Assembly (NCBI GenBank): GCA_026552955.1
Contig: JAPMTS010000005.1
Location: 1-64,000, forward strand
Origin: Candidatus Methanoperedens sp.
GTDB taxonomy: Archaea; Halobacteriota; Methanosarcinia; Methanosarcinales; Methanoperedenaceae
Direction: 5' to 3'
DNA length: 64,000 bases
The notes below the pieces were generated by a model. The model saw nothing but the letters and a program-made list of their open reading frames with translations, ran no database searches and was not told where the DNA came from. The translations under genes and the position numbers were made by a program. The stretch's first letter is position 1, and each line of letters starts with the position of its first letter. This document shows, piece after piece, positions 35,648 to 38,312 of this stretch.

Positions 35648-36406
35648 TTATCCGGGTTTTGATGCAATTTTTATCTCACTGACAAGTGATTTCAAAACCC
35701 TGTCCCTAATTATATTGGCTTCAGGGCCTGTCCGTATCCTTGGGCGCGTTAATTTAACATCGAATATCTCTTTAATTTTACCCGGGCGGGCTGACATGAT
35801 AAGGACCTTATCTCCCAGGTAAACGGCTTCGTCCACGCTGTGAGTTACAAAAAGCACACTTACGTGTTCCTTTTCCCAGATTCTTAATAATTCACTCTGC
35901 ATGAGATTTCTTGTCTGGGCATCAAGCGCGCCGAAAGGTTCATCCATCAATAGCAGCTTCGGGTTGTTGGCATAAGCCCTTGCGATACCGACTCTTTGTT
36001 TCATGCCCCCTGACAATTCATCAGGGTAATGGTTTTCAAACCCGCTCAAGCCTACGAGATCTATATAATGCTTTGATATTTTTTCACATTCCAAACTGGT
36101 CTTTCCCTTTACCTCAGGTCCGAATTCGATATTCTCTTTCACGGTCCTCCAGGGGAAAAGGGCATATTCCTGGAAGACAAAACCACATTCTTTATTGACC
36201 CCTGATATTTTCTTGCCGTCCAGGCATAACAAGCCACTATCCGGCTTTTCCAGCCCTGCAGCAAGGCGAAGAACAGTTGTTTTTCCGCATCCGCTGGGGC
36301 CAAGAAGGCACACGAACTCTCCCTCTGCAACTTCAAAATTAACATCTTCAAGTGCGAGAAAATCATTGAATCTCTTGGATACCGAATTTATGACTAATCT
36401 GCCCAT
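35648..36406 (-). CDS. ABC importer ATPase (nitrate/sulfonate/taurine class)
   Basis: 252 residues, full ABC domain: Walker A GPSGCGKTT, Q-loop in GFVFQEYALFPW, signature LSGGMKQRV, Walker B LLMDEPFGALD and the H-loop FVTHSVDEA. Closest in type to SsuB/TauB/NrtD. It overlaps the permease gene by 13 nt and is the last gene of a binding protein-permease-ATPase operon. The substrate cannot be read from sequence; sulfonate, nitrate, taurine or a pyrimidine precursor are options for the class. Confidence 0.93.
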   Translation of the reverse strand: MGRLVINSVSKRFNDFLALEDVNFEVAEGEFVCLLGPSGCGKTTVLRLAAGLEKPDSGLLCLDGKKISGVNKECGFVFQEYALFPWRTVKENIEFGPEVKGKTSLECEKISKHYIDLVGLSGFENHYPDELSGGMKQRVGIARAYANNPKLLLMDEPFGALDAQTRNLMQSELLRIWEKEHVSVLFVTHSVDEAVYLGDKVLIMSARPGKIKEIFDVKLTRPRIRTGPEANIIRDRVLKSLVSEIKIASKPG

Positions 36407-37200
36407 TTTATGAACCTCCTCTGCAAAAGAAGGATACTAATATTCATAATATATCCGATCACGCCTATAACTATCATACCTGCCACCATTTCCGAATAGC
36501 GGCCCAGGTCTCCCATGTTCCAGATAAAATAGCCAAGGCCCACGGGACTCCTGATAACCATCTCGGCTGCTACTATTGCCATCCATCCCACACCAAGCCC
36601 GATCCTCAAACCGGTCATAATAGATGGAAAAGCTGAAGGAATAATTACTTTTTTTACTATCATTGATTCTGAAGCCCCAAGTGTTCTTGCAGCGTCAATG
36701 AGCCTTGGGTCTGTTGATTTTACTCCCTGGACCGTGTTAAGGATAATGGGAAAAACCACGCCGATAAAAACAATAAATATCGATCCGCCGGATATGAAAA
36801 TAAATATCGACAGCGGTATCCATGCCATCGGAGGCATGTTTCGGATAATTTCAATTAAAGGATTGAATAAGTTTCCGATAAGCTTTGAATATCCAACACC
36901 GATACCCAGCGGGACACCAATGATAAAGGCAATAATCCCGCCTTCGATCACGCGCTGCAGACTGGCATAAACATGGTTAATGATACCATACGTGAAACCT
37001 GGCCCATGCAGCTGAATGAACATCGAACCAACAAGCGCGAACCATGTTTCAATAGGCGTGGGAATGTCCCCCAGCCGAATAAAAGGAATATTGAAACTAT
37101 CTTTCCTTGCAAGTATCACCAGCAACTGCCATACCAGCGCAAAAATGATAAGGGAAAGGAGGTTAATTACTAATCCTTTCTTGCCTTGCTGGATTTTCAT
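36394..37200 (-). CDS. ABC importer permease (SsuC/TauC type)
   Basis: 268 residues with about six membrane helices. The coupling (EAA) loop reads DAARTLGASESMIVKKVIIP, as in the BPD transport family. A periplasmic segment after the first helix (residues about 35-75) is longer than usual. Its ATG overlaps the stop of the binding-protein gene by one base (TAATG), and its end overlaps the ATPase gene. Confidence 0.92.
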   Translation of the reverse strand: MKIQQGKKGLVINLLSLIIFALVWQLLVILARKDSFNIPFIRLGDIPTPIETWFALVGSMFIQLHGPGFTYGIINHVYASLQRVIEGGIIAFIIGVPLGIGVGYSKLIGNLFNPLIEIIRNMPPMAWIPLSIFIFISGGSIFIVFIGVVFPIILNTVQGVKSTDPRLIDAARTLGASESMIVKKVIIPSAFPSIMTGLRIGLGVGWMAIVAAEMVIRSPVGLGYFIWNMGDLGRYSEMVAGMIVIGVIGYIMNISILLLQRRFIKWAD

Positions 37201-38312
37201 TAATAGCTGACCGTAAGTCCTTCCTTTTCTGCCTCCATGAGGAAAAGAACATGCTGTATGGTACCGGGTCCGGGGAATCCAACTGTCTCTCCCTGCAAGT
37301 CCTTAATAGAGGTAATGTTATTGGCCACAACGATCACCGACCCTTCATTATTCATCCCTGCGATCACTCCAACGCGTGCGTCATCTTTGGAAAAATCATT
37401 GCTATTGATCCTGTGGATAATCACAGGTGGTATTCCAAGACTTCCCACATCAACCGTATTGGCTTTAAAGCCGTTTTGCATCTCAAAAGCCCCGTTCTGG
37501 AATGGTGCACCTTCAGCTATTGTAATATTTATTCCCAAATCGTTATAATATCCTTTTTGCCATCCTACGTAGAATGGCAATTCATGAATATCATTAATAA
37601 GGTATGCATACCGGATGTTGACAGGTTCTTTCAATGAAAGCTTCGAGAGATTTTCATCTTTGTTATTGATGGCCCAATCCACATATTTGTTTGTCACGAG
37701 TGAATTTGCATAATCTGAAGCGTTCTCATATCCTGATTGATTCCATTTCGCCATGTCGAATATCTTAAAATCCTGTATACGCTGGATAAATGTGGTTGTG
37801 CCAGCAACATTAGTATTATAAACAAATTCCACATCAGCAAGACTCAGGTTCGCAGCCACAGGATCTGTCATTCCGCCAAACTGCATTGTATAATTGATCA
37901 ATTGGGCATGGTCGGGTGAATCGCCCTGCTTTGCATTATTTATGTATTCAACCGATCTTAACTGCACAAGTGCCATGCGCTTCAGGATCTCATCAGAATT
38001 ATTTGTCTTCTTATACCAGTCATCATCATACGCTACTACACAGCAGGGATGGTCAGTCCATATTTTTCCTGAAAAAATAAAGTTTTTCCCATACCCTTTG
38101 GTAACCGCTATTGCAGGATAAGGTTCCCACATGATGAATCCAGCAATTTCCCCTGTCCCCAATCTCTGTATCATCTCCTGTCCAGTCATTTTCACAAGGT
38201 TTATTGGTTCTGATGCTTCAGGAGTTTTTTTGCTTTCAAGACATCCTGATACAAATATTGCCAGAATAATGACAAATAGGATCTTCAGTGAATTTTTCAT
38301 AATCTTCCTCAA
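37200..38312 (-). CDS. Lipoprotein substrate-binding protein with permuted lobes (SsuA/NMT1-like)
   Basis: 370 residues with a lipobox (FVSGC, lipid-anchored Cys24). Residues about 30-220 match what is normally the second half of SsuA/TauA proteins: RLGTGEIAGFIMWEPYPAIA, then PCCVVAYDDDWYKK and a long helix. Residues about 228-370 match the normal first half: VNIRYAYLINDIHELPFYVG, DVGSLGIPPVII, SIKDLQGETVGFPG. The protein ends in EGLTVSY, exactly where a standard protein would run into the sequence found here after Cys24. The family fold thus appears circularly permuted. First gene of the importer operon. Confidence 0.85.
   Translation of the reverse strand: MRKIMKNSLKILFVIILAIFVSGCLESKKTPEASEPINLVKMTGQEMIQRLGTGEIAGFIMWEPYPAIAVTKGYGKNFIFSGKIWTDHPCCVVAYDDDWYKKTNNSDEILKRMALVQLRSVEYINNAKQGDSPDHAQLINYTMQFGGMTDPVAANLSLADVEFVYNTNVAGTTTFIQRIQDFKIFDMAKWNQSGYENASDYANSLVTNKYVDWAINNKDENLSKLSLKEPVNIRYAYLINDIHELPFYVGWQKGYYNDLGINITIAEGAPFQNGAFEMQNGFKANTVDVGSLGIPPVIIHRINSNDFSKDDARVGVIAGMNNEGSVIVVANNITSIKDLQGETVGFPGPGTIQHVLFLMEAEKEGLTVSY

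Follow-up and report, generated by a model that had tools for sequence, protein, structure and literature searches.

The window, by which is meant the whole 64,000-nucleotide stretch of Candidatus Methanoperedens sp. DNA that was analysed, encodes a substrate-binding protein (SBP) of the SsuA/TauA type in which the two halves of the chain stand in reversed order. Profile matches, rotation tests, tree analysis and the recurrence of the swap in numerous independent genomes support it as a circular permutation of such a protein within an intact SBP-permease-ATPase operon. The explanation that best accounts for the whole, held with high confidence, is that the gene encodes a membrane-anchored, bilobed type II SBP of an ABC importer, and that its chain underwent a single permutation in an ancestor of several Halobacteriota-type archaeal lineages.

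The gene and its operon

The open reading frame (37200-38312, reverse strand) is intact and comprises 370 amino acids counted from a TTG codon. Because the alignments of relatives begin at the ATG at 38300, and because a GAGGA lies just 5' of this codon, a protein of 366 amino acids is the likelier product. The gene had been described previously as intact and as closely linked in one operon to a permease and an ATPase gene, and the overlaps between consecutive genes bear this out (Table 1). Both features that mark membership of the SBPs are present: an export signal with a lipobox, and an operon with permease and ATPase.

Table 1. Features of the permuted SBP operon in the window
Feature	Position	Strand	Basis and remarks
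Circularly permuted substrate-binding lipoprotein gene	37200..38300	(-)	366 aa from ATG; listed ORF from TTG 38312
GAGGA, probable ribosome-binding site for initiation at the ATG	38306..38310	(-)	Putative; read from the sequence
Signal peptide and lipobox VSGC (lipid anchor, Cys20 in ATG numbering)	38241..38300	(-)	Sequence and alignments; anchor probably at the lobe-2 end
Classical C-terminal half, first in chain	37635..38213	(-)	Most of lobe 2 and the C-terminal helices; contains the W..HPCC motif; profile matches, rotation tests, alignment
Classical N-terminal half, second in chain	37203..37628	(-)	Lobe 1 strands and first lobe-2 helix; new C-terminus EGLTVSY; profile matches, rotation tests
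Permease (BPD_transp_1)	36394..37200	(-)	Start overlaps SBP stop; co-inherited with permuted SBPs
ABC ATPase	35648..36406	(-)	Start overlaps permease end; groups with ATPases of same-genus normal-order operons

Profile matches and rotation tests

Profiles from Pfam and NCBIfam match the two halves of the protein in reversed order. In the 370-residue numbering, positions 152-229 of the 252 of NMT1_2 (PF13379) fall on residues 35-111 and positions 5-109 of the 216 of NMT1 (PF09084) fall on residues 245-356; in NCBIfam, SaoX positions 124-219 fall on residues 30-125 and SsuA_fam positions 7-127 on residues 240-366. Both Pfam matches pass their curated cut-offs (NMT1_2, 67.9 bits with a cut-off of 24.7; NMT1, 31.5 bits with a cut-off of 20.5). 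SsuA_fam (TIGR01728) is matched in two stretches at 47.1 bits and does not reach its cut-off of 163.5, a shortfall due at least in part to the splitting of the match, and a relative of normal order (L086) scores 183.8 bits against the same profile.

In a rotation scan, the mature window protein was rotated in steps of three residues, and each rotated form was scored against a hidden Markov model (HMM) of 19 normal-order homologues. The native order scored 58.5 bits with only one half matched, whereas the best rotation scored 132.4 bits in a single alignment over model positions 31-305. The normal-order control L088, scored with an HMM built without it, did the opposite, falling from 403.9 bits in its native order to 191.9 bits when cut at the equivalent place. 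In the reverse scan, L088 was rotated against an HMM of permuted proteins and peaked at 165.4 bits at the residue 156 rotation, over a baseline of 83. Rotation approximately doubles the native score in each of the 32 permuted proteins that were tested. When a profile of the permuted family was compared with solved structures, it matched halves of TauA, SsuA, NrtA and CmpA, and none was matched over the whole length in chain order.

The preliminary description had placed the C-terminal half of an SsuA/TauA-type protein first and the N-terminal half second, and had proposed a profile comparison of the rearranged sequence. The reversed halves in Pfam and NCBIfam and the gain on rotation both agree with that order. 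The standard N-to-C order of the SsuA/TauA/NMT1 halves was not found with Pfam, NCBIfam or the rotation scan, nor is the first half an unrelated domain, given its NMT1_2 match; these were the two outcomes that the description had named as contrary to its claim.

Distribution among archaea

The swapped order is not peculiar to the window gene, but belongs to a family spread over the phylum. Its colinear, importer-linked form is present in 26 of 34 Methanoperedenaceae genomes, and 52 named loci with the swapped order were found in independent assemblies, including M. nitroreducens and BLZ2; these loci derive from Candidatus Methanoperedens and its family, the ANME-2 cluster archaeon HR1 and a Methanosarcinales MAG. 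At class level, full-length colinear matches occur only in families f1, f2 and f6 among the matches listed, those listed for other families being to separate halves. At phylum level, the permuted SBP was found in 30 of 394 genomes of what we take to be the Halobacteriota, and it is present in 22 of the 59 genomes in the class of G336, whose family (f10) we presume, with little doubt, to be Archaeoglobaceae. A motif scan of genome contigs had hinted at a restriction to Methanoperedens; its two peptide patterns were too strict, and this restriction was rejected once the clade had turned up in further families in profile searches. Searches of plasmids returned mostly partial bacterial matches, none of which was demonstrated as permuted.

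The same distribution bears on the quality of the assembly. The window genome is a draft of 54 contigs, in which a mis-joined contig, through an error of assembly or binning, could have swapped the halves; however, dozens of independent genomes show the same order and the same cut, at identities of 25-93%, and some of these loci lie on single-contig chromosomes (for example, G336 and G258). An artefact is refuted by the retention of the order in unrelated assemblies and can be given practically no credence, in keeping with the earlier statement that the swap is not an assembly break.

Cut site, membrane tether and predicted fold

The last residues of the protein, EGLTVSY, had been said to join naturally to its own first residues, and in the rotated alignment they join to EPINLVKM (residue 35 onwards, 370-residue numbering). 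The join point corresponds in normal proteins to the loop that links the first helix of lobe 2 to the strand after it, and the old C-terminal helix is followed by a linker of some 15 residues that leads to the old first strand. In the topology of type II binding proteins, such a cut would leave two lobe crossovers and place both new ends on lobe 2. The alignment thus points to a cut in a lobe-2 loop and to a lipid anchor that would have shifted from lobe 1 to lobe 2, whereas the two crossovers should remain, with only their order along the chain reversed. The preliminary description had both the hinge crossovers and the membrane tether moving, of which the movement of the tether stands and that of the crossovers, by family topology, does not.

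An AlphaFold2 model built from 52 permuted sequences has a mean pLDDT of 89 and a pTM of 0.84. Within the whole-protein model the C half has a pLDDT of about 90-98; the low confidence of the same half when modelled alone (pLDDT 69) suggests that it is not an autonomous unit. This behaviour, together with new termini in one lobe and a joint that is a linker, would also suit a domain-swapped dimer in which the halves are exchanged between two molecules, but the single-chain model is confident and nothing indicates a dimer, and such an exchange is regarded as quite unlikely. An order-dependent Foldseek search gave a query TM of at most 0.36 for every solved structure among the matches listed, values that stand without a normal-order control model from the same pipeline; the match of highest probability was OpuAC (3chg), a family that is itself permuted relative to ProX.

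Origin of the permuted clade

In a tree of the SBPs, computed on the rotated alignment, a single branch (100/100) separates the 32 permuted from the 19 normal proteins, and the permease tree shows the same split (SH-aLRT 97). In the tree of the C half the permuted group forms one branch (99), and in that of the N half it does not, where two changes would be needed that are not forced by supported branches. As SBPs and permeases each split at one branch, the simplest reading is that the permutation apparently arose once, long ago.

A permutation could be mimicked by a chimera, in which the C half of one SBP paralogue was fused to the N half of another. The failure to recover the permuted group as one branch in the N-half tree and the occurrence of SBP paralogues side by side in L131 lend this some plausibility, but both halves align to one family, and the rotated sequence aligns without a break and with the pocket residues conserved. 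In the half trees, which are weak, there is no clear sign that either half is closer to a normal group of its own, and a chimera is judged improbable, although less so than a domain-swapped dimer. Under the single permutation that is preferred here, the original chain ends would have been joined by a short linker in the ancestor of several archaeal lineages, and new ends would have opened in the lobe-2 loop described above, probably via tandem duplication, fusion and trimming. The permuted chain would still form a two-lobe flytrap of the usual kind with an unchanged pocket, close on its ligand and hand it to its own permease, tethered to the membrane through lobe 2 rather than lobe 1.

The ATPase tree does not show this split: ATPases from the permuted operons of Methanoperedens group with those of three normal-order operons that also belong to this genus (99). 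The ATPases of these normal-order SBP and permease operons (L086-L088) are 73-77% identical to the window ATPase. The genomes with this normal-order SBP (G007, G012 and G016) are all among the eight without the permuted importer; for independent genomes, such a non-overlap would arise by chance with a probability of about 0.009, but these genomes are not independent. The grouping of the ATPases across the two orders and the non-overlap of the genomes are read as an event between importers of similar function, in which either the ATPase was exchanged or SBP and permease were replaced. In G001, the ATPase gene lies at a contig end and its SBP may be lost in a gap.

Kinase-linked paralogues

Immediately behind a dCache-HAMP-HisKA-HATPase kinase gene, and often overlapping its end, lies the gene of a permuted SBP paralogue with 25-32% identity; this arrangement occurs in Methanoperedens and in ANME-2 relatives (L002:1465-3908; L003; L060-L082). 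The paralogue is presumably the ligand-binding partner of the kinase, the pair likely constituting a two-gene sensor. Several of these paralogues are without the lipobox cysteine and may keep the N-terminal helix as an anchor. Two ORFs of 96 amino acids (L004:1459-1749 and L113:3611-3901) match the permuted, kinase-linked SBP at its end only and represent remnants or split genes.

Since paralogues directly follow a histidine kinase gene, the window SBP might itself be mainly a sensor component and not a transport component; however, throughout the family the gene is tightly joined in one operon to those of permease and ATPase, and the permease is co-inherited, so that a primarily sensory role merits little weight. 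A broader proposal may be advanced tentatively, as possible but rather doubtful: that a distinct clade of archaeal type II SBPs, with its own co-inherited permeases and kinase partners, goes back to one ancient permutation, that the tether on the opposite lobe is functional and alters how the closed protein docks on permease or kinase, and that the ATPase is exchangeable with those of normal-order importers.

Binding pocket and candidate ligands

Conserved across both orders are a histidine in the first lobe-1 helix, G..P, GS, Q and W..H with C, the last taking the form W..HPCC in most permuted members. Because these pocket-side residues are shared by the two orders, the binding pocket has probably survived the permutation.

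The surroundings of the permuted importer differ between lineages. In L124, genes for a corrinoid protein, a corrinoid activator and an MtrH-like methyltransferase precede the permuted SBP, and similar genes occur in L127, L130 and L132. In these four loci (L124:443-6462, L127, L130 and L132), the permuted SBP-permease-ATPase genes come directly after those for the AcsV-like corrinoid activator and the MtrH-like protein, with a corrinoid protein gene before these in L124 and L130. The cluster is possibly an operon for uptake and demethylation of a methyl compound. The gene mtnA, for methylthioribose-1-phosphate isomerase, adjoins the permuted importer in three families (L118:6261-7295, L119:3-689, L121:1396-2442 and L131:6538-7563), having been called by profile in L118 and L131 and by resemblance in L119 and L121. 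The order in L131:715-7563 is cysteate synthase, sulfopyruvate decarboxylase, a normal-order SBP-like protein without a signal, the permuted importer and mtnA. The window holds no such sulfur or methyl gene context of the corrinoid, mtnA or cysteate type. The protein family and the gene context in other lineages allow only a guess at the ligand, which may be a small sulfur-containing or methylated compound.

In eight loci (L117, L119, L120, L122, L123, L128, L129 and L131), a small gene resembling an HTH regulator is found close to the permuted SBP, in most cases upstream of it and in divergent orientation. Normal-order SBP-like proteins without a signal peptide, presumably cytoplasmic, are encoded at L136:1495-2436 (G000:C21) and L131:3050-3928.

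Comparison with known systems

Few natural circular permutations of binding proteins are reported in the papers searched, and what permutation does to docking and tethering is difficult to test where the two forms are only distantly related. In the present case, both orders are present in a single genus and share their type of ATPase, and importers and, seemingly, histidine kinases make use of the permuted form. Binding proteins are permuted by engineers for biosensors, and the present family offers a cut site tolerated by evolution across many archaeal families. Order-dependent profiles under-score the whole clade, as in the 47 bits of the window protein against a cut-off of 163.5.

The window SBP resembles SsuA/TauA/NrtA-type SBPs (PF13379, PF09084 and TIGR01728) in the homology of both halves, the lipobox and the operon, but its halves are reversed and its ends would lie in lobe 2. 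Its nearest normal-order archaeal relatives also keep W..H(P/A)CC and the other pocket-side residues. SaoX (NF040735), the SBP of the Sec-assisted organometallic system (PMC13188914), is akin in sequence to both halves, but the window SBP scores 38.6 bits against a cut-off of 300, and no Sao neighbour genes were seen in the window operon.

Two permutations are known among other binding proteins. TpMglB-2 (Tp0684) is a 'Type Ic' circularly permuted glucose-binding lipoprotein that is tethered and two-lobed, and still binds and closes (PMC4990184). It has a type I fold, a different cut and a fourth lobe crossover, whereas the window SBP belongs to a type II family and by topology should have no added crossover; no kinship of the permuted N lobe with the type I fold of MglB was found, the significant profile matches being to type II families. 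The glycine betaine binding proteins OpuAC (2B4L) and ProX (1R9L, 1SW1) are related by a circular permutation within type II (PMC2395249), as is the case for the window SBP, but they form another family. The window SBP has no Pfam match to the OpuAC-type family PF04069 at E<=1, and the kinase-linked paralogue L002 has a sub-threshold match (20.7 versus 21.2). The OpuAC cut apparently falls about one strand-helix unit before that of the window SBP. A literature search, with most subscription journals outside it, found no report of this permuted archaeal family, and the clade is considered a new, independent-looking variant beside the known permutations of TpMglB-2 and OpuAC/ProX.
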